NCBI RefSeq assembly: GCF_000235425.2
Contig: NZ_KI912266.1
Coordinates: 5,714,166-5,778,165, forward strand
DNA length: 64,000 bases
Direction: 5' to 3'
Source of the DNA: Pseudofrankia saprophytica
GTDB taxonomy: Bacteria > Actinomycetota > Actinomycetes > Frankiales > Frankiaceae
The notes under the pieces were generated by a model that was given only the letters and a program-made list of their open reading frames with translations, was not told where the DNA came from and made no database searches. Made by a program: the position numbers and the translations under genes. Positions 4,566-26,299 of this stretch are shown here, one piece after another; the stretch's first letter is position 1, and each line of letters opens with the position of its first letter.

Positions 4566-4627
4566 CAGTGCCGTCCGCCGACCGGAAGACGATGGGATGG
4601 TGAATCCTGGCCCGCGCATCGCGGCGT

Positions 4628-7165: not shown

Positions 7166-8143
7166 TTACCTCGGGTTGGCGAGCAGCACCGCGGCGTTCA
7201 CGGCCGGGTCGGTGCGTGTCTGACGTACCCAGGTGCCCAGTGCGTGGGTCAGCTCCGCGGAGGTGCCCAGTAGGGCGTCGAGGGCGAGTACCCGGCTGTG
7301 GAAGTGGTGGTGGCTGTGTTCCGCGGTGAAGCCGATGGCGCCCAGTACCTGCAGGGTGCGTTCGCAGACGCGGCGCCCGTTGCGGCCGGCCAGTGCCTTG
7401 AGGACCTCGTCGTGGCGTGGGGGCGTCGCCTCGTCGAGGCGGACCGCGGTGACGGCGGCGCTCTCGAGCGCGACGCAGTCGGTCTGCGCCCAGGCGAGCA
7501 GGTGACGGACCGCCTGGAACATGCCGATGGGCTGGCCGAACTGTTCTCGCGCGCCGGCGTGCGCCACCGCCAGCGCGAGCGTGCCCTCGGCCGCGCCCAG
7601 GATGTCCAGGGCGACGGCCAGACGGCCGAGGAACAGACCTCGGCCCCGGACCGGCGAGGCGTGGCGCTCTTCGACCGTGGGAGTCCAGGCGGACGGGTCC
7701 ATCTCGACCTCGTGGATGGCGAGGCGGCCCGCGAGGTCGAGCGGACGAAGCTCGACCAGGTCCGCGTCGACGACGCCCGCGCCCTGGCCTGGGCGGTCGA
7801 TGAGCAGGGACCTGCCGGCGACGTCGCCGAGGACGACCACTCGCTCACTTCGCCGCGGGGAGTGGCGGTTGACGGTCGCGATGAGCGATCCGGGGGTGTG
7901 CCCGGTGACAGCGAGGAAGGGCTGGGCCATCAGGGCGCCCAGCGCGGCGGACGTCGCCAGTTCCCGGCCCTGGGCGCGGAACAGCGCAAGCGCGGCCATC
8001 CGGCTGTCCCGGTCGGCCAGGTCGGGAAGCAGGTCCCACCAGCCCAGCGCGTCCAACGGGTCGCCGCCCTGGCTGGACGCGCGCAGCGCGAGACACGCCG
8101 CGTCGAGGAACTCCCGGTCGGCCTGTTCCATGGCCATCGTCAT
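7166..8143 (-). CDS. Acyl-CoA dehydrogenase family protein, partner-type subunit
   Basis: A 325-residue acyl-CoA dehydrogenase paralogue, shorter than the usual 380-400. It keeps the C-terminal core (AREQFGQPIGMFQAVRHLLA and LQVLGAIGFTAEHSHHHFH) but has no SEPGSGSD-type FAD-binding segment. Its start overlaps the stop of the upstream dehydrogenase by four bases (ATGA at 8140-8143), implying translational coupling and an obligate partner. This matches the non-flavin-segment subunit of heteromeric FadE pairs known from actinobacterial steroid degradation; that it forms a complex is inference. Confidence 0.85.
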   Translation of the reverse strand: MTMAMEQADREFLDAACLALRASSQGGDPLDALGWWDLLPDLADRDSRMAALALFRAQGRELATSAALGALMAQPFLAVTGHTPGSLIATVNRHSPRRSERVVVLGDVAGRSLLIDRPGQGAGVVDADLVELRPLDLAGRLAIHEVEMDPSAWTPTVEERHASPVRGRGLFLGRLAVALDILGAAEGTLALAVAHAGAREQFGQPIGMFQAVRHLLAWAQTDCVALESAAVTAVRLDEATPPRHDEVLKALAGRNGRRVCERTLQVLGAIGFTAEHSHHHFHSRVLALDALLGTSAELTHALGTWVRQTRTDPAVNAAVLLANPR

Positions 8144-10624: not shown

Positions 10625-11772
10625 GCCTCGACCTTTCGTGCGCCGCTCTTCGCTTCGACCAGGGAGGTGACGCGCAGCCGGTGCTCGCGGGGCGTGCCCA
10701 GCAGCGCGCTCGCCACCGCCACCCGGCGCAGGTACAGGTGCAGATCGTGCTCGAACGTCACGCCGATGCCGCCGTGTAGCTGGACGCAGTCCTGGCACAG
10801 CTCCGGGCCGTACTGCCCGATGTACGCCTTCGCCGCGCTGACCAGCTCCGCCGCCCGCTCGTCCTCGGCCCCCACCGCGGCCGCGGCCGCGTCCGCCACC
10901 GCATGGCTGGTCTCCAGCCACATCTTCAGATCCGCGAACCGGTGCTTCAGCGCCTGGTACGAGGCCAACGGCCGGCCGAACGAGTACCGGTCACCCGCCC
11001 AGGCCATCGTCAGCTCGAACGCCCGGTCCATCGCGCCGACCATCTCCGCTGTCTGGATCACCAGGGCCGTCCGCAACTGCCGCTCGACCTCCTCCGCCGC
11101 CGCCCCCGGCTTCCCGACGACGGCCGCCCCCGCAACCCGCACCTCACGGAACCCGACCCGGGCGAACCTGCGAGACGTGTCCAGGGTCTTCAACGGGGTG
11201 ACCGTGACACCGGCGCTGTCGGCCGGCACGAGCAGCTGCGTCAGCCCGTCGCCGGTCCTCGCCGTGACCAGGAACAGCTGTGCCTCGGCGCCGTGCTCGA
11301 CCGGCGCCTTCTCGCCCGAAAGCACCCAGTCCGCACCCGAGGCCACAGCCGTCGCGGTGACCTCACCCAACCGGTCATGAGGGACCGGCTCACTCAGACA
11401 CCACGCCCCGACCGCGTCACCGGCGCAGATCCGGTCCAATGCCTGCTCGGCCGCCTCGCCGCCCGCCCGGGACAGCGCGCCGGCGACCACGTTCGCCCCC
11501 AGCAACGGCCCGGGCGCCGCATGACGCCCGAACTCGTACGCCACCAACGCCAGATCGACCAGGCCCACGCCGCTCACGCTTCCGCCGCCATGCTCCTCGG
11601 CGACCAGCAGCGAGGTCCATCCCAGCTCGACCCCGGCCTTCCAGTACTCCGGTCGGTATCCCCGCTGGTCGTGCCGAAGCTCGCGCAGGACATCCCCGGG
11701 AACGGTGTCCCGCAGGAACCTGCGCGTCGTGCTGACCAGAAGCTCCTGCTCCGCGGCCAGTCCTACCTTCAT
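10621..11772 (-). CDS. Acyl-CoA dehydrogenase, partner-type subunit
   Basis: A 383-residue acyl-CoA dehydrogenase paralogue. In place of the SEPxxGSD loop it has SEPVPHDRLGE, while the C-terminus carries QDCVQLHGGIGVTFEHDLHLY, the signature of the second subunit in FadE pairs. The ATG at 11772 follows GGAGGATCTG, so that start is firm. Four dehydrogenase genes run leftward from here with overlaps or 10-bp gaps down to 7166, clearly one operon. Confidence 0.88.
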   Translation of the reverse strand: MKVGLAAEQELLVSTTRRFLRDTVPGDVLRELRHDQRGYRPEYWKAGVELGWTSLLVAEEHGGGSVSGVGLVDLALVAYEFGRHAAPGPLLGANVVAGALSRAGGEAAEQALDRICAGDAVGAWCLSEPVPHDRLGEVTATAVASGADWVLSGEKAPVEHGAEAQLFLVTARTGDGLTQLLVPADSAGVTVTPLKTLDTSRRFARVGFREVRVAGAAVVGKPGAAAEEVERQLRTALVIQTAEMVGAMDRAFELTMAWAGDRYSFGRPLASYQALKHRFADLKMWLETSHAVADAAAAAVGAEDERAAELVSAAKAYIGQYGPELCQDCVQLHGGIGVTFEHDLHLYLRRVAVASALLGTPREHRLRVTSLVEAKSGARKVEA

Positions 11773-11878: not shown

Positions 11879-13063
11879 TCAGCCGAGCGAGATCCCCAGT
11901 GCCTCGAGCGCGTTCTCCCGCGCGATCCGTCGGACGTCCTCGTCCGGCAGGCCAGCGAGCGACTCGGTCACGAAGTCGGCCGGTGCGCGGGTGCCCTCGG
12001 CATGCGGCCAGTCCGAACCGAGCAGTAGCCGGTCGACGCGCACGTCGGCGACGAGCTCGTCGATGTGGTCCTCCCAGAACGGCGTGATCCACACATGTTC
12101 ACCGAAGACCTCCCGCGGGTGGTCGCGGAAGTAGCCCGGGTTGCGGTTGGCGGCGTCGTCGAGGCGGTGCAGCAGCTCCGGAACCCAGGACGCGCCATTC
12201 TCGACGCTCGCGAACCGCAGGGTGGGGAAACGGTCGAAGACCTTGTGGCACACCGCGGCGGCATAGAAGTCGCTGACCGCCCGGCCCTTGGTCACGATGC
12301 CGCGCAGCGGAGAGCGGAACAGCGAGTTCTCCTCGCCGCCCGGCTCCCACATCTGGACCAGGGCGTCGTAGCCGTCGAGCCCGGCGTGCGTCGCCACGGG
12401 AATGCCAGCCTCGGCGGCGAGCCCCCAGAACGGGTCGTAGGCCGGGTCGAAGGGCGAGCGGAAGCCACCGGGCACCGGCACCGGCGCGTTGCGGACGTTC
12501 ACGGCCACGGCCCCGGCCTCGACCACGCGCCTCAGCTCCCCGGTGGCGGCCGCCGGGTCGAGCAGGGGGATGCACGGCACGGCGAACAGCCGGTCCTCGT
12601 AGCGGAAGCCCCAGTCGTCGTCGAGCCACCGGTTGAACGCCTCGAAGACCTTGGCGCAGGCCTCCGGATCGTGCCTGAGCGCGTCCTCGACGCCGACGCC
12701 GAGCGTCGGGAACAGCAGCGTGCCGGCCAGCCCCTGCTCGTCCATCACCTGGAGGCGGGCCTTGCGGTCGCGGTACTCCGGCCGCAGCGGCTCCAGCTCA
12801 CCGAACGCGTCCCTGATCTGCTGCCGGCGCGGGTTACCCCGGTACCAGTCGTAGAGAGCTCCGGGCTTGGCGACGGGATTGAACGTCGGGTTCGCGATGT
12901 AGTTGTTGATCTTTCCATTGATCAGGATCCGCCGCTGCCCGTCCACGCCCGCCCACCGGACGCCCCGGTTGCGCAGCGCCCGGTCCTGGTACCGCGTGAA
13001 CGCGTCTTCCGCTTCGTAGTAGTGGTTGTCGAAGTCGAAGATCCACGGAGCTGCCTGGTTCAT
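11879..13063 (-). CDS. Amidohydrolase_2 (ACMSD-like) family protein
   Basis: A 394-residue TIM-barrel hydrolase/decarboxylase-like protein. The N-terminal metal segment appears as FDFDNHYYEAEDAF, with AGIPVATHAG in the middle and LLLGSDWPHAEGT near the end holding the metal-binding Asp. Family members hydrolyse or decarboxylate cyclic substrates with one bound metal. The first-strand motif is DNHYYE rather than the common DxHxH, a variant shared with the paralogue at 18933. GAGAGG precedes the ATG at 13063. It is divergent from the next dehydrogenase pair, with TYRA element 5 between them. Confidence 0.85.
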   Translation of the reverse strand: MNQAAPWIFDFDNHYYEAEDAFTRYQDRALRNRGVRWAGVDGQRRILINGKINNYIANPTFNPVAKPGALYDWYRGNPRRQQIRDAFGELEPLRPEYRDRKARLQVMDEQGLAGTLLFPTLGVGVEDALRHDPEACAKVFEAFNRWLDDDWGFRYEDRLFAVPCIPLLDPAAATGELRRVVEAGAVAVNVRNAPVPVPGGFRSPFDPAYDPFWGLAAEAGIPVATHAGLDGYDALVQMWEPGGEENSLFRSPLRGIVTKGRAVSDFYAAAVCHKVFDRFPTLRFASVENGASWVPELLHRLDDAANRNPGYFRDHPREVFGEHVWITPFWEDHIDELVADVRVDRLLLGSDWPHAEGTRAPADFVTESLAGLPDEDVRRIARENALEALGISLG

Positions 13064-13133: not shown

Positions 13134-13158
13134 TATCGAAGTCGATACCAATGTCGAG
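13134..13158. promoter_or_regulatory. TYRA-NN repeat element 5
   Basis: Reads TCGA, TCGA, CCAA, TCGA with two-base spacers; one unit has decayed. It lies in the divergent interval between the leftward amidohydrolase (start 13063) and the rightward dehydrogenase pair, so it could control both directions. Confidence 0.6.
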
Positions 13159-13187: not shown

Positions 13188-14204
13188 CTGTCCACCACGA
13201 CAGCTCCTGACGAGCTTCACCAGCTACGGGAGGCCGTGCGCGGGACGCTCGGTACCGACCGGCAAGATCTTCCATCCGCCGTCGCCACCGAGTGGCGCCT
13301 GGCGTGGCCGGCGATGGCGGAGCTCGGCGTGCCGGGCCTGTGCGTGCCCGAGCCGCTGGGCGGCTTCGGGCTGCGGGTCGACGCGGCGGTGATGACCGCG
13401 ATGGAACTCGGCGCGGCGCTGCACGCAAGCCCGTATGCGGGGCTGACCGCGAGCGCCCACGCACTGGCCCAGATCACCGACGACCCCGTCGTCGACGAAC
13501 TTCTCGGTGGCATCCTCGCCGGCGAACGGGTCTGCGCGTTCGGACACCTCGGCGCGGACGGCCGGCTCGCCCGGCTGGTCGACGGCTTGCCAGGATCGGA
13601 TGCCCTGCTGCTGGAACAGCCAGGAAACGGCCTGGTGCTGTTCGTCGATCCGAGCAGCTGGACGGTCGACACCGCGCCTCATCACTTCGACGTCTCCAGG
13701 ACCTGCGCCGATGTCACCGTGGACGCGCGCGGCGGCCACCGGCTCACGGCCCCCGGCCACGCCGTGGCCCTGTACGAGCTGCTCCTCGCCGCGGACGCCG
13801 TCGGCTGCGCGCGCCGGATGCTCGACCGCGCCGTCACCTACGCCGGCCAGCGCCAGGCGTTCGGCCGGCCGATCGGCGCCTTCCAGGCGGTACAGCACCG
13901 TCTCGCCGACCACGCGGTACGGGTGCGGGGCATGACACTCGTGGTCCGTGAGGCGGCCAGGTTGTTCGGCGCCGATCCCGTCCGCCTGCGGCGTGCCGCC
14001 GCGTCGGCGTCGCTGAGCGCGAGTTCCGGCGCGCCGCTCATCCTGCACGACCTGCTCCAGCTCACCGGCGCGATCGGCTTCACCTGGGAGTACGGGCTGC
14101 ACTTCTACGACCGCCGAGCCCATCAGGACGCCCGGTTGGCCGCCAACCCCCGGGCGGCCCGGCGGTCGCTCGCGGACCTCGAGGGATGGACCCATGCGCG
14201 CTGA
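13188..14204 (+). CDS. Acyl-CoA dehydrogenase, partner-type subunit (start uncertain)
   Basis: About 338 residues. The C-terminal QLTGAIGFTWEYGLHFYDRR marks it as the subunit type that lacks the SEPxxGSD loop; YAGQRQAFGRPIGAFQAVQHR is also clear. No ATG, GTG or TTG lies close to the expected N-terminus in this frame. A CTG at 13188 (LSTTTAPDELHQLREAV) preceded by GAGG is the best-placed candidate; the in-frame GTG at about 13231 would clip the first helix. It overlaps the next gene by 11 bp, so the two are coupled. Confidence 0.8.
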   Translation: MSTTTAPDELHQLREAVRGTLGTDRQDLPSAVATEWRLAWPAMAELGVPGLCVPEPLGGFGLRVDAAVMTAMELGAALHASPYAGLTASAHALAQITDDPVVDELLGGILAGERVCAFGHLGADGRLARLVDGLPGSDALLLEQPGNGLVLFVDPSSWTVDTAPHHFDVSRTCADVTVDARGGHRLTAPGHAVALYELLLAADAVGCARRMLDRAVTYAGQRQAFGRPIGAFQAVQHRLADHAVRVRGMTLVVREAARLFGADPVRLRRAAASASLSASSGAPLILHDLLQLTGAIGFTWEYGLHFYDRRAHQDARLAANPRAARRSLADLEGWTHAR

Positions 14205-15360
14205 TGTCGAGGCCTACCGGGAACAGGTCCGGTCCTTCATCGCCGAACACGGCGTACCCATGCAGGGAGAAGGCGTTCGGGTCCCCCGGAACCAGGACGA
14301 GGAGAAGGCGATCCGGGCCTGGTTGCGGGCGCTCTACGAGGCCGGGCACCTGGGCGGGGGCTGGCCGCGGGAGTGGGGCGGCCGGGCCGACCACCTCGCC
14401 GCCCACGACCTCGTCCTGATGGAGGAGCTCATCCGCGGCGACGCGTATCGCCCGCTGGACCAGGTGATGTTGGCAAGCCACGCGATCATCGGGTTCGGCT
14501 CCGACACCCAGAAGAGCGAGCTGCTCCCCCGCATCCGCGCCGGCGAGCACATCTGGTGCCAGCTGTTCAGCGAGCCCGGCGCGGGCAGCGACCTGGCGTC
14601 GTTGCGCACCCGCGCCGAACCGGACGGCGAGGAGTTCGTCGTGACCGGCCAGAAGATCTGGAGCACCGACGCGCAATGGGCCGACATGGGGATGCTGCTG
14701 GCCCGCACGGACCCCACGGTCGACCGCCATGCCGGGATCACCGCGTTCGTCGTCCCGATGGACCTTCCCGGCATGGAGATCCGACCCATCCGCGAGATGA
14801 CCGGTTACGCGGAGTTCTGCGAGGTGTTCCTCGACGGGGTGCGCCTCGGCCGCGAGCACGTCCTCGGCGAGGTGAACGGCGGGTGGAAGGTGGTGACGTC
14901 GGGGCTGGCCTCCGAGCGCGCCTTCGTCGGAGCCAACGCCGTACAGCTCGAGCGCATGTTCGCCGACCTGGTCTCGCTCGCCGCGGCCGCCCGGCTGGCC
15001 GACGGCACGACCGCGCTGGAGCACGAGGATGTCCAGGCACGGATCGCGGACGCCCTCACCCGCGTCGAGGAGGTCACGCTCATCGTCCGCGACACCGTCG
15101 ACCGGATACTGGCGGGCGACGAGCACCCCAGCGACGGCCCCGTCGCCAAGCTCGCCTACACCGAGACCAACGTCGCGCTGTGCGACCTCGCGATGGAACT
15201 GATCTCCTCCTCCGTCTCGATCGACGATGCCGACGTCGAGGTCGCGAGACGATGGCACCACAACTACCTCTGGGGGCGAGCCCTGACCATCTCGGGCGGC
15301 GCCTCGGAGATCATGCGAGGGCTCATCGGCCGCCAGCTCCTCGGCCTACCGCGGTCGTGA
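14194..15360 (+). CDS. Acyl-CoA dehydrogenase, flavin-segment subunit
   Basis: A 388-residue acyl-CoA dehydrogenase with LFSEPGAGSDLASLRTRA, FVVTGQKIWSTDAQWADMG and C-terminal SGGASEIMRGLIGRQLLGLP. It starts at the ATG at 14194, inside the end of the preceding partner-type dehydrogenase, and so forms the third adjacent unlike pair in this region. It is followed after about 120 bp by an AMP-dependent CoA ligase on the same strand, which could supply its acyl-CoA substrate. Confidence 0.9.
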   Translation: MRADVEAYREQVRSFIAEHGVPMQGEGVRVPRNQDEEKAIRAWLRALYEAGHLGGGWPREWGGRADHLAAHDLVLMEELIRGDAYRPLDQVMLASHAIIGFGSDTQKSELLPRIRAGEHIWCQLFSEPGAGSDLASLRTRAEPDGEEFVVTGQKIWSTDAQWADMGMLLARTDPTVDRHAGITAFVVPMDLPGMEIRPIREMTGYAEFCEVFLDGVRLGREHVLGEVNGGWKVVTSGLASERAFVGANAVQLERMFADLVSLAAAARLADGTTALEHEDVQARIADALTRVEEVTLIVRDTVDRILAGDEHPSDGPVAKLAYTETNVALCDLAMELISSSVSIDDADVEVARRWHHNYLWGRALTISGGASEIMRGLIGRQLLGLPRS

Positions 15361-15480: not shown

Positions 15481-17094
15481 ATGGACGCCACAACCGGACG
15501 GGCTTCGGCGCCTGTCCCCGACAGCTTTCCTCGCGCGGCCTCCGAACGCGTCCTGCGGCATCGGGCGGACGGTCTCTGGGACAACCGTGTCCTCACGGAT
15601 GGGATCGAGGCCGCGGCCGAACGCCGTCCCCACGCGGCGGCGCTGGTGGATGGTGAAGGGCAGCTCTCCTGGGCGCAGCTGGCCTCGGAGATCGTCCAGG
15701 GGGTCGCCACGCTCGGCACACGAGACATCGGCGCGGGCGACGGCGTCATCCTGATCAGCGGTAACACCAGGCATGGCGTGATCGCCTACCACGCCCTCCT
15801 GCGCATCGGCGCGACGGTCGCGGTGCTCGACCGCCGGTGTGGCGTCGCCGACGTCCGGGACGCGCTCGGCGTCCTGCCGGCACGGCGACGGGTGATCGTT
15901 TCCTCGGAGGAGGCCGGACGTCTGGAGAACGGGCTGGTCGCCGTCGACACCACGCCGTTGGAAATCTTTGGTGGCGAACCGCGTCCAGCAGTGCTTCCGG
16001 CGGCGCCATCGACGCCGAGGGCCGAGCCAGACCGCGACCGCGCTGCGGTGATCCTGTTCAGCTCGGGCACCACTGGACGCCCGAAGGGCGTCGCTCATTC
16101 GCTGAACACGCTGACCGCCGGCGCCAGCAACATGGCCCGCATCACCGCCGCCGACGAGCGCACGGTGGCGTTCCTCGTCAGCCCGCTGACCAGCATCACC
16201 GGCCTGATGCAGGTCCACCTGGCCGCCGACCAGCACGCGACGCTGGCGCTCGAGGACCGCTTCGAGCCGCGGGGAACGCTGCGGAGGATGGCGGCTGTGG
16301 GCGCGACCTTGCTGGGCGGCGCGCCCGTCATCGCCGAACGCCTGCTGCGCGCCGCCAGCGACGGCGCGAACGGCGGCGTCACCCTCCGGACCCTCGCGCT
16401 CGGCGGCGCGATGCTGCCGCGCCCGCTGCTGGAGCTCGCGACCGACGCGTTCGGCATCGAGATCGCCCGGGTCTACGGCTCGTCCGAGGCACCCAACTTC
16501 TCGGGCAGCCTGGCCACGGACGACCGCGAGCGACGGCTGTCCGATGACGGTGCGCTCATGCCTGGCAGCGAGCTGCGGATCGGCTCCACGCGCCATCAGC
16601 GGGAGGGGCTGCTGCGCGGGCCTAGCCTTTTCCTCGGCTACCTCGACGCAGCGGACGACAGTTCCGCCTTCGAAGACGGCTGGTACCGAAGTGGTGACCA
16701 GATCGAAGCCCATCGGGGCAGGCTGACCGTCGTCGGCCGGCTCAAGGAGGTCGTCAACCGCAACGGCCTGAAGATCTCGCTGACCGAGATCGACGCCGCG
16801 CTGGCGGCGCTTCCAGGCGTCGAGGAGTACGCCTCCTTCGCCATGCCCGACCCGGACACCGGCGAGCGACTGGCGGTGGCCGTGCTGGAAGCCGATGACA
16901 CCGCGGTCACCCTCGACGACGTCGTCGCGCACCTGCTCTCGTGGGGAATCGCCAAACGCAAGCTGCCCGAGCAACTGGCCCGCTGGGACGGACCACTCCC
17001 CCGGACCGCCTCCGGAAAGGTCATCCGTTCGCGACTGGTCATGGAGTCCCCGGCCAAGACCAACGACCTGGCTGCCCGCCTACGCCGCGCGTAA
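15481..17094 (+). CDS. AMP-dependent acyl-CoA synthetase/ligase
   Basis: A 537-residue member of the adenylate-forming superfamily. The phosphate-binding loop FSSGTTGRPKG is at about residue 187, YGSSEAPNFSG is the A5 motif, DGWYRSGDQIEA the A7 motif, and the catalytic lysine is in PRTASGKVIRS near the C-terminus. It should activate a carboxylic acid to acyl-AMP and then to the CoA thioester. GGAGG nine bases before the ATG at 15481 fixes the start. The substrate cannot be read. Confidence 0.9.
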   Translation: MDATTGRASAPVPDSFPRAASERVLRHRADGLWDNRVLTDGIEAAAERRPHAAALVDGEGQLSWAQLASEIVQGVATLGTRDIGAGDGVILISGNTRHGVIAYHALLRIGATVAVLDRRCGVADVRDALGVLPARRRVIVSSEEAGRLENGLVAVDTTPLEIFGGEPRPAVLPAAPSTPRAEPDRDRAAVILFSSGTTGRPKGVAHSLNTLTAGASNMARITAADERTVAFLVSPLTSITGLMQVHLAADQHATLALEDRFEPRGTLRRMAAVGATLLGGAPVIAERLLRAASDGANGGVTLRTLALGGAMLPRPLLELATDAFGIEIARVYGSSEAPNFSGSLATDDRERRLSDDGALMPGSELRIGSTRHQREGLLRGPSLFLGYLDAADDSSAFEDGWYRSGDQIEAHRGRLTVVGRLKEVVNRNGLKISLTEIDAALAALPGVEEYASFAMPDPDTGERLAVAVLEADDTAVTLDDVVAHLLSWGIAKRKLPEQLARWDGPLPRTASGKVIRSRLVMESPAKTNDLAARLRRA

Positions 17095-17283
17095 ACAGCC
17101 CGGAGGCGGACGAGATAGCGGTCCGGAGCCGGCAACCGAAGGTCATGGCGGCGATCCTGGTCGCCGCGGTGACGGTCTGCGGCGGCGGACGGGCCCGGGC
17201 CTGGGCACGCGACCAGAGATCCACACTGACGCGGGATCGCCACCACCTACGGGCGATCATGTGGAGTCGCTTGCGCGGGACTC

Positions 17284-17310
17284 TATGTTGACGTCAACCT
17301 CGACTTCGAG
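17284..17310. promoter_or_regulatory. TYRA-NN repeat element 6
   Basis: Reads TTGA, TCAA, TCGA, TCGA with two-base spacers, preceded by CTCTATG exactly as in element 4. It lies 124 bp upstream of the CoA ligase start at 17434. The rest of the 17095-17283 gap shows no supported gene. Confidence 0.65.
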
Positions 17311-17433
17311 AACGATGACTCGCGACGTCCCGAGCCGAGCGGGCAGCGGCGCCTTCGCCGTCGAGGAGCCGGTCAAGCCGCGCCTCGATCCCGTGAGCGC
17401 GACCTTCGCTGGAACCGGATAGGAGACAACCTC

Positions 17434-18891
17434 GTGGAGTCCGAGGTAAGTAACGCCCGCCGCATCCGCCAGCTCGCCGACGAGCATCCCGACGAGATCG
17501 CATTGCGGCATATCGCGTTGGAGGGTGGTGAGCCGGCGTTCACCTGGGCATGGCTGGACCGGCGGTCGAGCCAGCTCGCCGCCGCGCTCGTCGAGCGCGG
17601 CCTCGACCTGGGCGACAACCTGGCACTCGGTCTGCGCAACACGCCTCAGTTCGTGGTGGCCGCGCTGGCGGCCTGGAAGGTCGGCGCGGTACCGGTACCG
17701 GTGCGCTGGGACGTACCCGACTGGGAGCTGGCCCGAGTCCGAGAGGTCATCGCGCCGCGGATCTACCTGAGCGCGACCGACCTCGACTGGATCGACGCGA
17801 CGGCACAGGCACCTGTTCCGGAGCTGCCTGACAGGGTCTCACCTCAGGTGAACGGCATCTGCAGCAGCGGCTCGACCGGCACGCCGAAGGTGATCCTGAC
17901 CAGCCGGCCGTCGTTGTACGACGAAAGGCTGGCCACGCCGTTCGCACAGTCGTGGGGACCGGTGCCCCGTCCCCAGACGATCCTCGTGCCCGCGCCGATG
18001 TACCACGCCAACGGTTTCACGACCCTGCACAACCTGCTCGGTGGTGACCAGTTGGTCCTGATGGAGAAATTCGACGCGACGCGTGTCGTCGACGTCATCG
18101 AGCGGCACCGGATCAGTCACTTCACCGCCACGCCGACCATGCTCCAGCGGATTGCCGACCTCCCCGGAATCGACGGCCGCGACCTGTCCAGCATCCACTG
18201 GATCATGCAGGGCGCGGCGCCGATGCCGGCTTCCCTGGTGCACCGGTGGGCGAAGCTGATCGGCGCCGAGCGGATCCTCATGGCCTACGGCATGACCGAG
18301 GGACTCGGCCTCACCGCGCTACGCGGCGACGAATGGATGAACCATCCCGGCAGCGTCGGCCGCGGCTTCGCCGGCACCGAGGTACGCGTCCTCGATGCCG
18401 ACGGCACCGAACTGCCCTCCGGCGAGGTCGGGGAGATCTACCTGCGGTCGGCCTCCTCTCGCGGCTACCAGTACCTCGGCAATGCCCCCCGCATGAAGAC
18501 GACGCACGACGGCTTCCAGACCGCCGGCGACATGGGCTATCTCGACGCCGAGGGCTACCTCCACCTCATCGACCGACGCGTCGACCTCATCATCACCGGC
18601 GGCGCCAACGTCTACCCCGCCGAGGTCGAGGCCGCCCTCATCGACCATCCCGACATCGCCGACATCGTCGTCGTGGGGCTCCGCGATCCCGAATGGGGCC
18701 GCCGCGTCCACGCCATCATCGAACCCACCCACCCGGGCGCCCCACCGGCCGCGGCCGAGATCATCGGCTACGCCAAGAGCCGCCTCGCCCCCTACAAGGT
18801 TCCCAAGACCATCGAGATCGTCGACGCGATCCCCCGCAGCGAGGCCACCAAGGTCAACCGCGGCACCCTCGTCCAGGCCCGCGGCGGCTGA
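17434..18891 (+). CDS. AMP-dependent CoA ligase, bile-acid-CoA-ligase-like
   Basis: A 485-residue ligase. The P-loop is SSGSTGTPKVIL, followed by LVPAPMYHANGF, the AYGMTEGLGLTALRGDEWM segment typical of bile acid-CoA ligase-like enzymes, DGFQTAGDMGYLD and IDRRVDLIITGGANVYP. The usual C-terminal PRxxxGK reads PRSEATKVNRG, so the catalytic lysine is present in a variant context. It starts at the GTG at 17434 with GGAG upstream. A steroid-like or alicyclic acid substrate is suggested only by family resemblance. Confidence 0.88.
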   Translation: MESEVSNARRIRQLADEHPDEIALRHIALEGGEPAFTWAWLDRRSSQLAAALVERGLDLGDNLALGLRNTPQFVVAALAAWKVGAVPVPVRWDVPDWELARVREVIAPRIYLSATDLDWIDATAQAPVPELPDRVSPQVNGICSSGSTGTPKVILTSRPSLYDERLATPFAQSWGPVPRPQTILVPAPMYHANGFTTLHNLLGGDQLVLMEKFDATRVVDVIERHRISHFTATPTMLQRIADLPGIDGRDLSSIHWIMQGAAPMPASLVHRWAKLIGAERILMAYGMTEGLGLTALRGDEWMNHPGSVGRGFAGTEVRVLDADGTELPSGEVGEIYLRSASSRGYQYLGNAPRMKTTHDGFQTAGDMGYLDAEGYLHLIDRRVDLIITGGANVYPAEVEAALIDHPDIADIVVVGLRDPEWGRRVHAIIEPTHPGAPPAAAEIIGYAKSRLAPYKVPKTIEIVDAIPRSEATKVNRGTLVQARGG

Positions 18892-18932
18892 ACCGCCCAG
18901 CCGTTCTTCCACACTTCTCCCAGGAGGCCGTC

Positions 18933-20159
18933 ATGTCGAGATCCATCGCGTTTCCGGTGTTCGACGCCGACAATCACATGTACGAGACCACGGACGCGTT
19001 CACCAAATACCTTCCGGCGACCCACGCCGGGCTCGTGAAGTACGTTGAGGTGAACGGCCGGACGAAGATCGCCCTCAAGAACACCATCTCCGAGTACATC
19101 CCGAACCCGACCTTCAACGTGGTCGCGCCGCCGGGAGCGCAGGAACTCGAGTTCCGGTTGAAGAACCCGTCGTCGAAGACGAAGGCCGGCGACATCGAGG
19201 TCGCCCCGCCGCCGCGGCACGTCCCGTCGATCCCGGCCTACTTCAACCCGGCGGACCGCCTCGAGCTCATGAACGAGCTCAGCATCGATCGGGCGATGAT
19301 GTGGCCGACCCTGGCGAGCCTGCTCGAGGAGCGCCTCGCGGACGACGCCGAGGCCACCGTCGTCGTGGTCCGAGCGTTGAACCAGTGGATGCACGAGCAC
19401 TGGACGTTCAACTTCGAGAACCGGATCTTCCCGACTCCGATCATCACGCTGCCGCTGCTGGACGAGGCGATACGGGAGCTGGACTGGGTCGTCGAGCGGG
19501 GCGCGAAGGCGATCCTGGTCCGTCCCGCGCCCGTCCCGAGCGACAGCGGACGGCGCCGGTCCTTCGCTCTGCCGGAGTTCGACCCCTTCTGGAAGCGGGT
19601 CGAGGAGTCAGGCGTCGCCGTCGGCATGCACGCCTCCGACGACGGATTCCAGCGTTACCTGAACGAGTGGGAGGGATACCGTTCGGAGTTCCTGCCGTTC
19701 AAGACGAAGATGTCCGCCTTCACCGCGGTGGTGGCCAACGAACACCGCACGATCAAGGATGTCGTCACGTCGATCATCGGACACGGATTGGCGACCCGCT
19801 TCCCGAAGCTGCGCTTCATGCCGGTCGAGAACGGAAGCTCCTGGGTCCGCCCGCTGGTCGCGCAGTTCGAGAAGATCTACGACCGCCAGCCAGACCTCTT
19901 CGACGAAGACCCGATGGTGACCTGGCGGCGGTCCGTCTTCGTCCATCCCTTCCACGAGGAGGACGTCCTGGGGCTGGTAGACGTCCTGGGCGCCGACAAT
20001 GTGCTCTTCGGGTCCGACTACCCGCACCCGGAGGGCCTGTTCGACCCGGTCACGTTCATCGACGAGATCGACGGCCTGCCGGAGCCGGCACAGCGGAAGA
20101 TCATGGGCGGGAACCTGTCCACGATCATGGGTGTCGACCCACTGGCAAAGGTGCTCTGA
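18933..20159 (+). CDS. Amidohydrolase_2 (ACMSD-like) family protein
   Basis: A 408-residue paralogue of the protein at 11879-13063, sharing the FDADNHMYETTDAF start, GVAVGMHASDDG, FMPVENGSSWV and VLFGSDYPHPEGL with its metal-binding Asp. AGGAGG lies six bases before the ATG at 18933, and it follows the CoA ligase by 41 bp in the same transcription unit. Probably a metal-dependent hydrolase or decarboxylase acting on a CoA-pathway intermediate; the exact reaction is unknown. Confidence 0.87.
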   Translation: MSRSIAFPVFDADNHMYETTDAFTKYLPATHAGLVKYVEVNGRTKIALKNTISEYIPNPTFNVVAPPGAQELEFRLKNPSSKTKAGDIEVAPPPRHVPSIPAYFNPADRLELMNELSIDRAMMWPTLASLLEERLADDAEATVVVVRALNQWMHEHWTFNFENRIFPTPIITLPLLDEAIRELDWVVERGAKAILVRPAPVPSDSGRRRSFALPEFDPFWKRVEESGVAVGMHASDDGFQRYLNEWEGYRSEFLPFKTKMSAFTAVVANEHRTIKDVVTSIIGHGLATRFPKLRFMPVENGSSWVRPLVAQFEKIYDRQPDLFDEDPMVTWRRSVFVHPFHEEDVLGLVDVLGADNVLFGSDYPHPEGLFDPVTFIDEIDGLPEPAQRKIMGGNLSTIMGVDPLAKVL

Positions 20160-20243
20160 CGGTGATTTGACGCACCGGGTTGGAGGGTGAGTGGGCGGCA
20201 TCGAAACTTTCCCGGTCCCGACCAAGATCGAATTTTCCGCCGA

Positions 20244-20266
20244 TCACATCAATGTCAACGTCGACA
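20244..20266. promoter_or_regulatory. TYRA-NN repeat element 7
   Basis: Reads TCAA, TCAA, TCGA with two-base spacers, then CACC. It ends 17 bp before the ATG of the CoA ligase at 20283, so binding there would overlap the ribosome-binding or promoter region of that gene. Confidence 0.6.
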
Positions 20267-20282
20267 CCGTGCCGAGGCGCCG

Positions 20283-21959
20283 ATGACCACCGAGACGACG
20301 ACACCCCAATACAACCTCGCGACGGTGAACGAAGCCGTTGCCGAGCGGGTACCCGATCGAGCCTCGATCGTCTTCCGCGACCGGAGGTTCACCCACGCGC
20401 AGCTGGCCGCCCGCACCCGGCAGCTCGCGCACGTCCTGGCCGATCGCGGCCTCGGCGCTCGCCCGACGGGACACGGCGGACCGAGCACGCACGAATCCCA
20501 CCAGGATCATCTCGCCGTCTACGCCTACAACGGCAACGAGTACCTGGAGGCGATGCTCGGGGCGTTCAAGGCACGGGTCGTCCCGGTGAACGTGAACTAC
20601 CGATACGTCGCCGAGGAACTGCGCCACGTCCTTCGGGACAGCGCCGCGAAGGCAGTCGTGTACCACTCGGCATTCGCTCCGACGCTGGCCGAGGTGCTGC
20701 CCGATCTGCCTGAACTGCGGGTCCGGCTGCAGGTGGCCGACGGCTCCGGCAACGAGCTGCTCCCCGGCTCCGAGTGGTACGAGCAGGCACTCGCCCAGGC
20801 CCCCGCCACCCTGCCCGAGTGGGCGCCGGACTGGTCCCCCGACGACCTGTACCTCGTCTACACCGGCGGCACCACCGGGATGCCCAAGGGCGTCCTGTGG
20901 CGACAGGCCGACATCCATCGCACGGCCATGGGAGGACGGAACCCGCTCACCCGGCAACCGTGGCGGACACTCGACGAACTTGCCGAGTTCGCGGCGACGA
21001 ACATCGCACCACAGGTGGTGCTCGCGGCGTCCCCGTACATGCACGGCGCCGGCCACTGGACGGCGTTTCTCGGCCTGAACCAGGGCGGGACCGTGGTGAT
21101 CCAGGACAATGTCGAACGCCTCGACCCAGCCGACATCTGCTCCGCTATCCACCGGGAGAAGGTGACGTATCTCCAGATGATTGGCGACGCATTCGCTCGC
21201 CCGATCGTCGAGGAGATGGAACGCGGGAGCTACGACCTGTCGTCGCTACGCACGGTCCTGTCCGGCGGAACGGCGCTGACCCCGCCGGTGAAAACACGGC
21301 TGCTCGCCCGCATGCCCCAGGTGAGGCTCATCGAGAGCGTCGGATCGTCAGAAGGGGGCGGTCAGGCCGTACAGACGACTACCGCGGGCGGCACGAGTTC
21401 GACCGGCACCTTCTCGCCCACCGAGGGCTCTGTGGTCGTGTCCGCCGACTTCGCCCGGGTGCTCGGTCCCGGAGACGACGAGGTCGGCTGGCTCGCGAAG
21501 CGGGGCGACATCCCTCTCGGGTATCTCGGTGATCCGGTGAAGACGGCTCAGGCCTTCCCCATCGTCGCCGGCGAGCGGATGGTGGTACCCGGCGACCGCG
21601 CCCAGCGGCTCGCCGACGGCACGATCAAACTCCTGGGCCGCGACTCGATGACCATCAACTCGGGTGGAGAGAAGATCTTCAGCGAGGAGGTCGAGGCAGC
21701 GATCATCGCCCATCCCGACGTCTCCGACGTGGTGGTCGCCTCGCGGCCGTCGCAGCGATGGGGCCAGGAGGTCGTCGCGATCGTTCACCTGCACCGCGGC
21801 GCCTCCGTTTCCGAGAGCGATCTCGCTTCGGAAGCCGCCCGGCACATCGCCCGCTACAAGCTCCCCAAGGCCTGGGTGTTCGTCGACGCGGTCCAGCGGA
21901 CGGCCGCGGGGAAAGCCGACTACCGCTGGGCCGTCAAGGTCGCCGCCGCGGCGAGTTGA
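20283..21959 (+). CDS. Acyl-CoA synthetase, FadD19-like
   Basis: A 558-residue AMP-dependent ligase. The P-loop reads YTGGTTGMPKGVLWRQ, characteristic of the FadD19/FadD17 group of actinobacterial steroid side-chain CoA ligases. SVGSSEGGGQAV is the A5 region, LLGRDSMTINSGGEKIFSEEVE the hinge, and RTAAGKADYRW carries the catalytic lysine. The ATG at 20283 is chosen because the upstream in-frame extension translates TYRA element 7. A sterol-like acid is a reasonable guess for the substrate but is not demonstrated. Confidence 0.88.
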   Translation: MTTETTTPQYNLATVNEAVAERVPDRASIVFRDRRFTHAQLAARTRQLAHVLADRGLGARPTGHGGPSTHESHQDHLAVYAYNGNEYLEAMLGAFKARVVPVNVNYRYVAEELRHVLRDSAAKAVVYHSAFAPTLAEVLPDLPELRVRLQVADGSGNELLPGSEWYEQALAQAPATLPEWAPDWSPDDLYLVYTGGTTGMPKGVLWRQADIHRTAMGGRNPLTRQPWRTLDELAEFAATNIAPQVVLAASPYMHGAGHWTAFLGLNQGGTVVIQDNVERLDPADICSAIHREKVTYLQMIGDAFARPIVEEMERGSYDLSSLRTVLSGGTALTPPVKTRLLARMPQVRLIESVGSSEGGGQAVQTTTAGGTSSTGTFSPTEGSVVVSADFARVLGPGDDEVGWLAKRGDIPLGYLGDPVKTAQAFPIVAGERMVVPGDRAQRLADGTIKLLGRDSMTINSGGEKIFSEEVEAAIIAHPDVSDVVVASRPSQRWGQEVVAIVHLHRGASVSESDLASEAARHIARYKLPKAWVFVDAVQRTAAGKADYRWAVKVAAAAS

Positions 21960-22095: not shown

Positions 22096-22746
22096 GTGTC
22101 GTCCGAGAAGGCCAGGTCGTCCGGCGTGGGTTCGGGGGGCCGGGTGCGGTGGGGTAGCGAGACGGCGCTCGTGGATGACGATGAGGCGAGGCGTCGTCTG
22201 GTGGCGGCGGCGGGGCGGTGTCTCGTTGCTCGGGGCACGACGCGGCTGACGGTCGATGATGTCGCCAGGGAAGCCGCGGTGGCCAGGTCCACGGTCTATC
22301 GCTATTTCAGGTCGCGCGACGAGCTGGTTCTTGGTGTGATCCTCAGCCGTGTCGATGCCGGGATGCGGCGGGTCCTCGGGATGCTGGAGCACCCGGACGA
22401 CGCGGCTCGGTCCGTCGTCGATCTGATCATGCATTCGGTCGGTCTGGTGGCGGGTGATCCGCTCAACGAGGCGATGTTCGCGACGGACAGCCGGTGGTTG
22501 GTCACCTCGCTGGAGTTGCGGTCCGAGGCGGTCGTCGACGCCTTCCACCAGCATCTCGGCCCGCTCCTGGCCCGGTGGCGGGCCGAGGGTCAGCTCCGAG
22601 GGGATCTCGACCTCCGAGAGACGAGCCGGTGGATGAACACCGTGGCCTTGCTGCTGCTGGGACCACCGTGGACGCAGCGCCCGGACCGGGCGAAGCGCGA
22701 GTTCGTCGAGAATTACGTCGTGCCCGGGCTCCTCCCCCGGCGCTGA
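22096..22746 (+). CDS. TetR-family transcriptional regulator
   Basis: A 216-residue regulator with DDDEARRRLVAAAGRCLVARG, the helix-turn-helix VDDVAREAAVARSTVYRYF, and a long helical C-terminal domain ending VENYVVPGLLPRR. The start is ambiguous: GTG at 22096 has AGGAT upstream, while ATG at 22051 would add 15 residues. It follows the FadD19-like gene on the same strand and is the second candidate regulator of the TYRA elements. Confidence 0.85.
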   Translation: MSSEKARSSGVGSGGRVRWGSETALVDDDEARRRLVAAAGRCLVARGTTRLTVDDVAREAAVARSTVYRYFRSRDELVLGVILSRVDAGMRRVLGMLEHPDDAARSVVDLIMHSVGLVAGDPLNEAMFATDSRWLVTSLELRSEAVVDAFHQHLGPLLARWRAEGQLRGDLDLRETSRWMNTVALLLLGPPWTQRPDRAKREFVENYVVPGLLPRR

Positions 22747-23198
22747 GTGTCGGCGAGGAGCCGACCTTGGGAACCCCCTGTCGGTCAAGCCGTAGAGCCA
22801 CTCGCCGGTTACACCCGGCACCTGAAGGACACCCGGCACCGAACGAAGTTCCGGGTAGTTGACGACGTTGTCTTCACTCTGATCACCCCGCACCTCCGGC
22901 TCCTCGGTGTCGCTGGCGCGGGCCGCCGCACCACGGCATCATGCGAAAGGATCGGACACTCTCGCAATGTTGTCCCATCCTCGGGTACGCTCCGGTCTCG
23001 GGTTGGGCGGCACGTCGCAGCCAGCGTTCACCGGCGTATCTCAATATTGACGTCAATATTTAATCGACACCCCTTGGCGACTTCGTGACGGACCGTTCCT
23101 GCCCCGCCGGGCACGAGCGGGGCCCGGCGGGAAGCCAGACGGGGCTGGCGAGTCGGTCTGGGCGGTGGCTGGTGCCGCCGTGGGATGAGGAGGTGTCC
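22747..23198. other. Intergenic region carrying TYRA element 8
   Basis: No gene is supported in this 450-bp stretch. Its left part is an AT-richer spacer after the TetR gene. Its right part holds TYRA element 8 (23037-23069) and then the leader of the SnoaL/SDR/LLM/SDR operon, ending in AGGAGG just before the ATG at 23199. Confidence 0.6.
23037..23069. promoter_or_regulatory. TYRA-NN repeat element 8
   Basis: The longest copy: TCAA, TTGA, TCAA, TTTA with two-base spacers and then a further TCGA one base out of register. The core AATATTGACGTCAATATT is a perfect 18-bp palindrome. It lies 130 bp upstream of a four-gene rightward operon. Confidence 0.7.
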
Positions 23199-23711
23199 AT
23201 GGCTGCCGCGGGAGATCTGGCCGCGTTGGAGGCTCGGTTACGTGCTGTCGAGGATGAGCGGGCGATCGGGCGGCTGATCCTGTCGTACGGCCCCGCGGCG
23301 GACGCGGGGTTCGCCGACCTGGCCGCGTCGGTGTGGCGGGAGGACTGCGTCTACGACTGGGACGCGAACGGCACGCCCTACGAGGGCCGGGCAGCCGTGG
23401 AGGCCATGCTGCTGACCGACGGACATCGGGGCCTGATCCACGCCGGAGTCGCCCACGTGGCGGGACCGCCGCTGATCGACGTCGACGGTGACACGGCGAC
23501 CGCGATCACCTATTCGCTGATCATGCGCCGCGACGAGGCGGACGGGCGTTACTACCTGTGGCGGGTGAGCGCCGCGCGCTGGGATCTGACCCGCGACGAC
23601 GGTGGCTGGGCGGTGCGACGACGGACGAACCGGCTGCTCGACGACACCGGGGCCGGCCGGGAGCTCCTCGGCGCCACCCTGCGGGAGCTGTCCGAGGCGG
23701 TCGCCCGATGA
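23199..23711 (+). CDS. SnoaL-like / NTF2-fold protein
   Basis: A 170-residue protein with DERAIGRLILSYGPAADAG, SVWREDCVYDWDANG, GLIHAGVAHVAGPPLI and DGGWAVRRRTNRLL, the elements of a SnoaL_4 domain. AGGAGG precedes the ATG at 23199. The stop overlaps the start of the SDR by four bases (ATGA at 23708-23711), so it is the first gene of a tightly coupled operon. It is probably an isomerase, hydratase or lyase of the pathway; the exact role is unknown. Confidence 0.85.
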   Translation: MAAAGDLAALEARLRAVEDERAIGRLILSYGPAADAGFADLAASVWREDCVYDWDANGTPYEGRAAVEAMLLTDGHRGLIHAGVAHVAGPPLIDVDGDTATAITYSLIMRRDEADGRYYLWRVSAARWDLTRDDGGWAVRRRTNRLLDDTGAGRELLGATLRELSEAVAR

Positions 23712-24493
23712 CCGCCGGACGCCTGGCCGGGAAGGTCGCGATCATCACCGGCGCCAGCACCGGCCTCGGGCCCGTGATGGCGAAGCTCTTCGTCGAGCAG
23801 GGAGCCAAGGTGCTCCTCTCCGCCCGGCGCGAGGAGCTGGTACAGGAGGCGGCGGCCGCCTGCGGCCCGGACGCCGTCGCGATGCGGGCCGACGTGACCA
23901 ACGAGGACGACGTGATCGCGATGGTCGCCCGCGCCGTGAAGGAGTTCGGGCAGGTCGACATCATGTGCAACAACGCCGCCGCGCCCGGCAAGGACACCTG
24001 GATCTGGGAACAGACCCTCGAGAACTGGAACGCCACGATCGGCATCGACGTCACGGCGGCGATGCTGTGCACCCGGGAAGTCCTCAAGCAGTCGATGCTC
24101 GAGCGCCGAACGGGCGTCATCCTCAACTTCTCCTCCACCGCGAGCTTCCGCGGCATGCCCCGCAAGACCCACTACGTGACCGCGAAGACGGCGCTGCGCG
24201 CCTTCACCCAGACGGTCGCCAACGAGGTCGGCCAGTTCGGGATTCGCTGCAACTGCCTCGTGCCCGGCAGCATCGACACCGAGCTGTGGCAGAACTGGGT
24301 ACGGCGCACCGCCACCGAGCAGGGCATCGACTACGACGACCGCCGCGCGACGGTGCTGTCCGGGACGGCGCTGCGCGACATCTCCAGCACCACCGACGTC
24401 GCCAACACCGCGCTGTTCCTCGTCAGCGACGAGAGCCGCACCATCACCGGGCAGTCCATCATCGTCGACGCCGGCGGCGTGATGCTCGGATGA
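23708..24493 (+). CDS. Short-chain dehydrogenase/reductase
   Basis: A 261-residue classical SDR. The cofactor motif is TGASTGLG near residue 15, CNNAAAPGK replaces NNAG, the catalytic serine is in NFSSTASF and the Tyr-Lys pair in HYVTAKTALRAF. The C-terminus (ITGQSIIVDAGGVMLG) is typical. It should interconvert an alcohol and ketone with NAD(P). It is coupled to the SnoaL-like gene before it and to the LLM gene after it, both by ATGA overlaps. Confidence 0.92.
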   Translation: MTAGRLAGKVAIITGASTGLGPVMAKLFVEQGAKVLLSARREELVQEAAAACGPDAVAMRADVTNEDDVIAMVARAVKEFGQVDIMCNNAAAPGKDTWIWEQTLENWNATIGIDVTAAMLCTREVLKQSMLERRTGVILNFSSTASFRGMPRKTHYVTAKTALRAFTQTVANEVGQFGIRCNCLVPGSIDTELWQNWVRRTATEQGIDYDDRRATVLSGTALRDISSTTDVANTALFLVSDESRTITGQSIIVDAGGVMLG

Positions 24494-25398
24494 GCGGCGC
24501 ACCCGCCCTGCAGCTGTCTGTTCCCACGCCCGTCGTCACGATGCTCCCCGGCGCCCACGCCCGCTGGGAGGAGACCGCCACCATCGACGACGTGGCCCGC
24601 ATAGCCCAGGCCGCCGACCGGCTCGGCTACCACCACCTCACCTGCAGCGAGCACGTCGGTGTCCCGGCCACCGAGGCGGTCCGCCGCGGCGCCCGCTACT
24701 TCGACCCACTGGCGACCTTCGGCTACCTCGCTGCCCGCACCGAGCGCATCCGGTTGGCCACCAGCGTGCTGGTCCTCGGTTACCACCACCCGCTGGAGAT
24801 CGCCAAGAGCTACGGCACCCTCGACGTGATCAGCGGCGGCCGCGTGGTCCTCGGTGTCGGTGTGGGCACGCTCAAGGAAGAGTTCGATCTCCTCGATGTG
24901 CCCTTCGCCGACCGCGGGGCACGGGCCGACGACGCGCTGCGCGCGCTGCGCGCGTCGCTCTCCCAGTTCACCCCCGCCTACGAGGGCGACTATTACGCCT
25001 TCGGCGGCCTCCTGGTGGATCCCTGCGCCGTGCAGGAACGGCTGCCCTTGTGGGTCGGTGGCCGCACGCCGCGGTCGCTGCGGCGGGCAGTCGCCCTGGC
25101 GGACGGATGGTGCCCCTTCGGCATCACCCCGGCGCAGGCACACGAGTGGATCCAGCGGGAGGAGCTCCCCGTGGATTTCGAGATCGTGCTGGGCCCGGAG
25201 AACCCGCTGGACCCGATCAAGGAACCGGATGCCGCGCGCGAAGGGCTCGCCGTGCTGGCCGCCTCCGGAGCCACCATCGCCTCCGCCAGGTTCGTCCACC
25301 ACTCGCTGGCCCACTACCTCGAACAGCTCGAGGCACTCGCCGCCATCAACAGCCAGAAACAGACATCGTCGCAGAGAAGGGACGGGTCACATGGGTGA
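24490..25398 (+). CDS. LLM-class F420/flavin-dependent oxidoreductase
   Basis: A 302-residue luciferase-like TIM-barrel protein: AADRLGYHHLTCSEHVG, RIRLATSVLVLGYHHPLEIAK, GGRVVLGVGVGTLKEEF and LPLWVGGRTPRSLRRAV are family motifs. The start overlaps the SDR stop by four bases and the end overlaps the next SDR by 8 bp. In this setting it probably oxidises or monooxygenates the intermediate handled by the flanking SDRs. Confidence 0.87.
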   Translation: MSGAPALQLSVPTPVVTMLPGAHARWEETATIDDVARIAQAADRLGYHHLTCSEHVGVPATEAVRRGARYFDPLATFGYLAARTERIRLATSVLVLGYHHPLEIAKSYGTLDVISGGRVVLGVGVGTLKEEFDLLDVPFADRGARADDALRALRASLSQFTPAYEGDYYAFGGLLVDPCAVQERLPLWVGGRTPRSLRRAVALADGWCPFGITPAQAHEWIQREELPVDFEIVLGPENPLDPIKEPDAAREGLAVLAASGATIASARFVHHSLAHYLEQLEALAAINSQKQTSSQRRDGSHG

Positions 25399-26299
25399 CA
25401 GACTGCAGGGCAGGGTCGCACTGGTGACGGGCGCCGGAAACGGCGTCGGGAAGGGCTGCGCGCTCGCACTGGCCGCCCAGGGCGCGTCCGTCGTCGTCAA
25501 CGATCTCGGAACCGACGAGTTCGCGCAGGGACAGAGCCGCTCCGCGGCCGACGGCACCGTCGAGGAGATCCGCGCCGCCGGCGGCAAGGCCGAGCCGAGC
25601 TACGACTCAGTCGCCACCGCGGCCGGATGCGAGAACGCGGTGCGCGTCGCCCAGGAGGCCTTCGGCCCCGTCGACATCGTGGTGGCCTGCGCCGGCGCGG
25701 TCTTCCAGGGCGACCTGGCCGCCTCCGACGAGACCTACCACCGCTTCGTCGACCTCTTCCTCTCCCAGAAGTTCTGGCTGGCGCGCGCGACCGTGGAAGG
25801 GATGGCCGAACGCGGCTGGGGCCGGTTCATCACCACCACCTCCGAAGGCGCGCGCGGAACCCTCGGCAATCCGATCTTCGCCGGAGCGATGGGCGCAGTG
25901 ATCTCCTTCACCAAGGCCATCGCCCAGGAGTACCAACACCGCGGCGTCACCGCGAACTGCCTCGCACCCGGAGCCACCAGCCGACTCTCCCAACTCGTGG
26001 TGCCCCAGTTCGAACAGGCACACCGCGACGGAAAGATCAGCGACAAGATGTGGGAGGACATCCAGGCCGGACCCGGACCGGCCAGCCACATGTCCCCCAT
26101 CGTCGCCTGGCTCTGCTCCGACGTCGCCGCCTCCGTCACCGGCAAGGTCTTCAACAGCGGCGGCAACAAGATCAGCGTCTGGTCCCCCTACCGCGACGAA
26201 CGCTCCATCTTCCGCGGCGACCCACGCACCTCACCCCCCTGGACCCAGGAGGAACTCGACGAACTGGTGCCCAGCCAACTCCTGAACGACACCCTGTAA
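25391..26299 (+). CDS. SDR-family protein lacking the canonical YxxxK pair
   Basis: A 302-residue Rossmann-fold protein with TGAGNGVGKGC at residues 14-24 and a VVACAGA strand, so it should bind a dinucleotide. Where classical SDRs carry Tyr-x-x-x-Lys it reads Phe163 and Met167 (NPIFAGAMGAV), and the Ser/Thr strand is ITTTSEGARG. Unless another residue substitutes, normal ketone reduction is unlikely; a hydratase-like, dehydratase-like or binding role is possible. AAGGGA lies upstream of the ATG at 25391. It is the last gene of the four-gene operon. Confidence 0.85.
   Translation: MGDRLQGRVALVTGAGNGVGKGCALALAAQGASVVVNDLGTDEFAQGQSRSAADGTVEEIRAAGGKAEPSYDSVATAAGCENAVRVAQEAFGPVDIVVACAGAVFQGDLAASDETYHRFVDLFLSQKFWLARATVEGMAERGWGRFITTTSEGARGTLGNPIFAGAMGAVISFTKAIAQEYQHRGVTANCLAPGATSRLSQLVVPQFEQAHRDGKISDKMWEDIQAGPGPASHMSPIVAWLCSDVAASVTGKVFNSGGNKISVWSPYRDERSIFRGDPRTSPPWTQEELDELVPSQLLNDTL

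Follow-up and report, generated by a model that had tools for sequence, protein, structure and literature searches.

What kind of acid is served by a gene island in which CoA ligases stand beside proteins named as amidohydrolases? The question is raised by a 64,000-nucleotide stretch of the genome of the actinobacterium Pseudofrankia saprophytica (9.98 Mb, two contigs), referred to here as the window; it spans C1:5714166-5778165, C1 being contig NZ_KI912266.1, and plain positions below are counted within it. Pfam scans of 20 window proteins (3060-26299) found three AMP-binding ligases, two proteins of family PF04909 (Amidohydro_2), which carry the motif DNHxYE, and six acyl-CoA dehydrogenases arranged as three tandem pairs. 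We consider it somewhat probable, from sequence and modelled structure, that this is a CoA-thioester catabolic island for one or more carboxylic acids of bulky, probably alicyclic or isoprenoid, structure, and that its DNHxYE 'amidohydrolases' are dinuclear-metal oxygenases, not hydrolases.

Genes were called with our own codon-usage script, so gene starts are approximate. Across the central block, a PF04909 gene on the minus strand is followed by two acyl-CoA dehydrogenase genes, two ligase genes, the other PF04909 gene and a last ligase gene:

11879..13063, minus strand: DNHYYE protein, candidate dinuclear oxygenase (PF04909; 4dzi 2.9e-92, PtmU3 2.5e-29; six ligands)
13314..14204, plus strand: acyl-CoA dehydrogenase, pair 3, start uncertain, open reading frame (ORF) from 13026 (PF00441; IpdE2 108 bits, below the cut-off of 450)
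14194..15360, plus strand: acyl-CoA dehydrogenase, pair 3 (PF02770/PF00441/PF02771; pimC 186 bits, below the cut-off of 624)
15481..17094, plus strand: acyl-CoA/aryl-acid type ligase (PF00501/PF13193; top solved relatives oxalate-CoA ligase and salicylate-AMP ligase)
17434..18891, plus strand: acyl-CoA ligase nearest BaiB (PF00501/PF13193; 4lgc 3e-72)
18933..20159, plus strand: DNHMYE protein, candidate dinuclear oxygenase (PF04909, metal ligands, profile and fold ranking)
20283..21959, plus strand: acyl-CoA ligase, FadD19/PRK07798 subfamily (668 bits, cut-off 543)

A preliminary description of 15481-21959 had the ligases alternating with two DNHxYE amidohydrolases. Two such proteins exist; only the one at 18933 lies inside that segment, and alternation holds only for its last three genes.

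In the proposed route, the ligases at 15481, 17434 and 20283 would activate acids to CoA thioesters. The proteins at 18933 and 11879, on the PtmU3/DitZ side of PF04909 and with an Fe2 or Mn/Fe centre, would then hydroxylate an unactivated C-H bond of the CoA-bound substrate, a step placed ahead of beta-oxidation. Paired acyl-CoA dehydrogenases, short-chain dehydrogenases/reductases (SDRs), F420/LLM oxidoreductases and a thiolase would subsequently shorten or open the carbon skeleton, the gene runs being co-regulated by a TetR family acting through shared operators.

Metal ligands and fold of the DNHxYE proteins

Some members of PF04909 are dinuclear Fe2 or Mn/Fe monooxygenases, according to excerpts of PMC10811679, PMC7782822 and PMC10401708. 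As given in the excerpt of PMC7782822, the metal ligands of AibH2 are Asp25, His27, His211, Glu265, Asp337 and His340, an acidic residue at AibH2 position 342 (Glu313 in PtmU3) marks the binuclear members, and PtmU3 accepts CoA-ligated substrates. The protein at 18933 has D13, H15, H233, E299, D362 and H365 together with the acidic E367, and all seven residues are present in both DNHxYE proteins of the window. All 16 aligned proteins of the present genome, in which the 18933 protein has 31 matches, have the six ligands unchanged. Among the longer family members these ligands occur in 125 of 129, with an acidic residue at 367 in 121 of those 125. H233 (129/129) and E299 (127/129) both lie outside the patterns used to fetch the sequences. 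The more distant PF04909 paralogues in this genome are uninformative as a negative control because the ligands are kept there too, and human ACMSD was used instead; at the positions aligned with E299, H365 and E367 it has H, F and L.

The ranking of solved structures points in the same direction. Searches of the PDB with the DNHxYE proteins returned 4dzi, PtmU3 and DitZ at the top. Among named sequences, those closest to the 18933 protein are from Frankia. A profile of the family scored 4dzi at 493 bits, DitZ at 272 and PtmU3 at 211, with other dinuclear chains at 87-108 and ACMSD at 82. The PF04909 TIM-barrel fold of the 18933 protein was confirmed by Pfam, by its AlphaFold model (mean predicted local distance difference test score, 83) and by structural matching, in which the Z scores of the model were 48.3 for 4dzi, 34.5 for DitZ, 33.7 for PtmU3, about 29-31 for SfbO, TruffO and AibH2, and 29.1 for ACMSD. 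The oxygenase reading draws its main weight from the seven residues and this profile and fold ranking.

Other proteins of this family were seen along the way. A third PF04909-type protein lies at 50899-52182, with DitZ as closest solved relative (2.5e-115; PtmU3, 4.9e-36), and is followed by an aldehyde dehydrogenase-like gene. A shorter PF04909 relative with no recognisable metal ligands occurs near dinuclear-type members and ligases at three loci (L024:3291-4124; M. aurum MC14, locus L150; L042 H010), and it could be an AibH1-like partner.

The CoA ligases and the steroid-ring genes

The preliminary description had likened the ligases to steroid and bile-acid activators, found no kshAB, kstD or hsaC homologues, and suggested that the island may serve another polycyclic or alicyclic acid. 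The two motifs on which the likeness relied are present, TGGTTGMPKG in the 20283 ligase and GLTALRGDEWM in the 17434 ligase; the latter aligns with GLTCIRGDEWV of BaiB. For the 17434 ligase the resemblance stands, with BaiB its best solved relative (3e-72), while membership was rejected by the BaiB profile (NCBIfam NF038344, 345.8 bits against a cut-off of 650).

For the 20283 ligase the subfamily assignment (NCBIfam PRK07798) was upheld and orthology to FadD19 was not. Calibration was made on the KshA/KstD region of Mycobacterium aurum, where the genes stand in the order known from the cholesterol region and are named here by that order. Identity to the ligase at the FadD19 position is 37.5%. 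Two other ligases of the Pseudofrankia genome score higher as FadD19 homologues, so the orthologue assignment was rejected and the 20283 ligase is read as a paralogue. One of the two, at C1:4272566, adjoins EchA19-like (57%), FadE26-like (60%) and FadE27-like (44%) genes, and together they form a sterol-like FadD19/EchA19/FadE26/FadE27 cassette at C1:4272566-4278077. A better M. aurum match of the 20283 ligase is MC25 (50.5%), encoded next to a KshA-like Rieske gene whose counterpart at C1:5590576 of the Pseudofrankia genome has 66% identity. This cluster also contains DNHxYE-type proteins and a further ligase.

In this genome the canonical route of steroid-ring degradation is incomplete. Neither KshA_C nor KstD has a match within the window, and queries with the M. 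aurum HsaC and HsaA proteins found no match in the whole genome, where the BphC_D1 profile also has none (two in M. aurum). The absence first described has thus to be narrowed, since weak KshA_C and KstD-like genes do lie elsewhere: KshA_C has two matches genome-wide at 93-96 bits (305, 301, 165 and 95 bits in M. aurum), and a KstD query has five, the best a candidate KstD at C1:4293745 with 54% identity. This KstD-like gene is 15 kb from the sterol-like cassette, and the region C1:4272566-4295397 (loci L145 and L146) suggests a partial sterol route, HsaA and HsaC being unmatched in the genome. The idea that the island serves a non-steroid acid is supported by the lack of HsaA, HsaC and a strong KshA genome-wide and by the better FadD19-type cassette elsewhere.

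Ring-attack genes as such are perhaps not missing, contrary to the preliminary description, as the DNHxYE proteins resemble dinuclear oxygenases, and 9-17 kb upstream of the window start there are genes for an extradiol dioxygenase (LigB) and for a ring-hydroxylating alpha subunit of Rieske type. Just past this pair are the gene of a Fer2 reductase and one resembling aldehyde dehydrogenase genes; the Rieske/Fer2/LigB span occupies L031:620-10994 (C1:5694782-5705159), 9-20 kb upstream.

Gene neighbourhoods and operators

Conserved gene order was analysed at 79 loci from the genomes of other actinobacteria, taken from the best 80 of at least 585 relatives of the 18933 protein; genes within three of a family member were counted as near (n=457) and the others as far (n=655). 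Near the family there was a ligase at 33 of the 79 loci, an enoyl-CoA hydratase at 28 and a KshB-like reductase at 8. Ligases made up 56/457 near and 33/655 far genes; acyl-CoA dehydrogenases were not enriched (24/457 near, 73/655 far). The order ligase-amidohydrolase-ligase on one strand recurred at 19 of the 79 loci, and also at C1:7370913-7375257 of the present genome. An acyl-CoA mutase-like gene follows 11 of these 19 triplets, most of the 11 also having a B12 subunit, an LLM protein and a CaiB protein, and a KshB-like reductase lies within six genes of 10 of the 19, with FAD, NAD and 2Fe-2S domains in the one that was scanned; these triplet counts are not independent because the loci are related to one another.

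The remaining genes scanned comprise the first two dehydrogenase pairs, one thiolase gene, genes for two LLM oxidoreductases, two SDRs, one SnoaL_4 protein and two TetR regulators, and one ORF (4131-4832, minus strand), the only one of the 20 with no Pfam match:

3060..4076, minus strand: LLM-class F420-dependent oxidoreductase, Rv3520c family (TIGR03559 367 bits, cut-off 335; 42% to the M. aurum homologue at the Rv3520c position)
4628..5839, minus strand: thiolase, acetyl-CoA acyltransferase (PF00108/PF02803; PRK06205 688 bits, cut-off 551)
6282..7010, plus strand: TetR regulator (PF00440; paralogues adjoin other TYRA sites, at loci L159, L160 and L163)
7166..8143, minus strand: acyl-CoA dehydrogenase, pair 1 (PF00441)
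8140..9297, minus strand: acyl-CoA dehydrogenase, pair 1 (PF02770/PF02771/PF00441)
9344..10624, minus strand: acyl-CoA dehydrogenase, pair 2 (PF02770/PF02771)
10621..11772, minus strand: acyl-CoA dehydrogenase, pair 2 (PF00441/PF02771/PF02770)
22132..22746, plus strand: TetR-type regulator (PF00440)
23199..26299, plus strand: run of SnoaL_4, SDR, LLM oxidoreductase and SDR genes (PF13577, PF13561, PF00296, PF00106)

A short ORF at 4131-4517 (minus strand) resembles what we take to be the end of an aminoglycoside-phosphotransferase-like gene, possibly a deletion remnant. Further along, a 65-aa ferredoxin-like ORF (54960-55157) stands in a row with a ferredoxin reductase-like gene and a P450-like gene, the last two assigned by reading the sequence; this row (54960-57686) is a possible electron-transfer set.

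The gene runs share an operator-like sequence, the TYRA pattern (TYRANNTYRANNTYRANNTYRA), which has 11 matches with at most one mismatch at seven places in the window and none in 100 shuffles; genome-wide it has 77 matches, against 2 for the reversed pattern. Four of the predicted operators, which carry no strand, flank the genes discussed here:

6058..6085: between the thiolase and TetR genes
13136..13157: between the amidohydrolase and acyl-CoA dehydrogenase genes
17282..17315: ahead of the ligase-amidohydrolase-ligase run, with one exact match at 17288-17309
23041..23062: ahead of the SnoaL-SDR-LLM-SDR run

Eight of the 11 exact sites in the genome were judged to adjoin TetR paralogues, catabolic or transport genes, and three were not. 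Sites recur by paralogues of the window TetR gene and near other amidohydrolase genes (L159, L160, L163 and L164), and a multi-locus TetR/TYRA regulon is possible. The suggestion that such elements would mark ring-cleavage genes was not borne out, no site being near the LigB/Rieske pair, the KstD-like gene or the two KshA-like genes, all of which fall within the span, up to C1:5720223, for which the one-mismatch listing is complete. One-mismatch sites by the sterol-like cassette (C1:4270990-4271017) are simple GTCGAG repeats and were not relied on.

Alternative readings and known systems

Several results weigh against an oxygenase reading of the DNHxYE proteins and against the conserved module. 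The main doubt comes from the predicted nature of the activity together with the missing Rieske partner: a small Rieske protein is adjacent in 90% of AibH2-like cases (excerpt of PMC10401708), and a motif scan found no Rieske motif within three genes of the family (0/79 loci, 0/457 genes), so that an adjacent Rieske redox partner was rejected. KshB-like reductases show a weak enrichment (8/457 near, 3/655 far, p 0.034) that comes from related loci. The counts for residues in GSDxPHxE and HxYE are biased, since the locus-fetching search patterns cover them. Fold alone does not decide, as the Z scores of ACMSD and the AibH2/SfbO group differ by no more than about 2, and the six ligands alone may not mean an oxygenase, because some further PF04909 paralogues of the genome keep all six with Thr at 367. 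Lastly, identity between the ligases of the conserved triplets (19 loci) and the window ligases at 17434 and 20283 is low, about 25-29%, so the conserved order is not orthologous to that of the window; either the arrangement has more than one origin or its ligases have been exchanged.

It is rather unlikely, though the strongest competitor, that metal-dependent hydrolysis, decarboxylation or hydration is the real function of the DNHxYE proteins, for instance hydrolysis of a cyclic beta-diketone or lactone that arises in ring beta-oxidation. The Pfam name, the fold shared with ACMSD and related decarboxylases (Z 27-29) and the absence of a nearby Rieske ferredoxin gene would all fit; the two-metal-site residues E299, H365 and acidic 367, replaced in ACMSD, do not, and decarboxylases score lower than dinuclear oxygenases against the profile and, for the most part, in the fold comparison. 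An ordinary beta-oxidation island for branched-chain or dicarboxylic fatty acids, with no ring chemistry and the amidohydrolases in a side reaction, is unlikely. Small branched acids would fit the mutase-like gene that 11 of the 19 related operons have, usually along with a B12-binding subunit, and AibH2 acts on such an acid (excerpt of PMC7782822); no mutase is found among the Pfam-assigned window genes, and a larger substrate is suggested by the presence of three dehydrogenase pairs and of three ligases that are unlike one another. Least probable of all is a steroid or bile-acid side-chain pathway with its ring genes elsewhere in the genome, which we regard as improbable. It would account for the FadD19-subfamily and BaiB-like ligases, the paired dehydrogenases, the Rv3520c-family oxidoreductase and the KstD-like gene, and is opposed by the missing HsaC and HsaA, by KshA_C scores far below the two best in M. 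aurum and by the closer FadD19, EchA19, FadE26 and FadE27 homologues clustered in the sterol-like cassette.

Beyond this island, we tentatively propose, as a possibility that is itself rather doubtful, that a large family of amidohydrolase-fold dinuclear oxygenases attacks C-H bonds of alicyclic or terpenoid acyl-CoAs in such actinobacteria, with ligases adjacent and TetR/TYRA regulons above. If true, it would be a ring- or branch-attack strategy in place of KshAB-type Rieske oxygenases or P450s. Databases label DNHxYE-type proteins as hydrolases; were they oxygenases, they would be candidates for the oxidation step of many unexplained ligase/acyl-CoA dehydrogenase islands (Frankia, Mycobacterium, Nocardia, Rhodococcus and Streptomyces), and the adjoining ligases would supply substrates for assay. 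We found no report of a module of ligases and dinuclear oxygenases in literature whose coverage did not extend to the original PtmU3 and DitZ papers.

Among known systems, PtmU3, AibH2 and SfbO (and DitZ by similarity) share with the DNHxYE proteins the PF04909 fold, the six metal ligands and the acidic residue two past the last His, and together with DitZ they head the named relatives in the profile and fold rankings. The present proteins differ in having CoA ligases and enoyl-CoA hydratases rather than a Rieske ferredoxin as neighbours, in their many paralogues per genome and in being candidate oxygenases; the small Rieske protein adjacent to members of the AibH2-like subgroup was not found here by the motif scan, and they are not placed in that subgroup. 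FadD19 has in common with the 20283 ligase a score above the PRK07798 cut-off; the two are set apart by the 37.5% identity to the M. aurum ligase at the FadD19 position and by the two higher-scoring paralogues, one of them in the sterol-like cassette. BaiB shares the GLTxxRGDEW segment with the 17434 ligase, which falls well short of the BaiB cut-off (346 of 650 bits). Nearest of all is 4dzi (MAP2389c of Mycobacterium avium subsp. paratuberculosis), whose entry title is amidohydrolase and which belongs to the same DNHYYE family, with 39% identity in the structural alignment at the Z score of 48.3.

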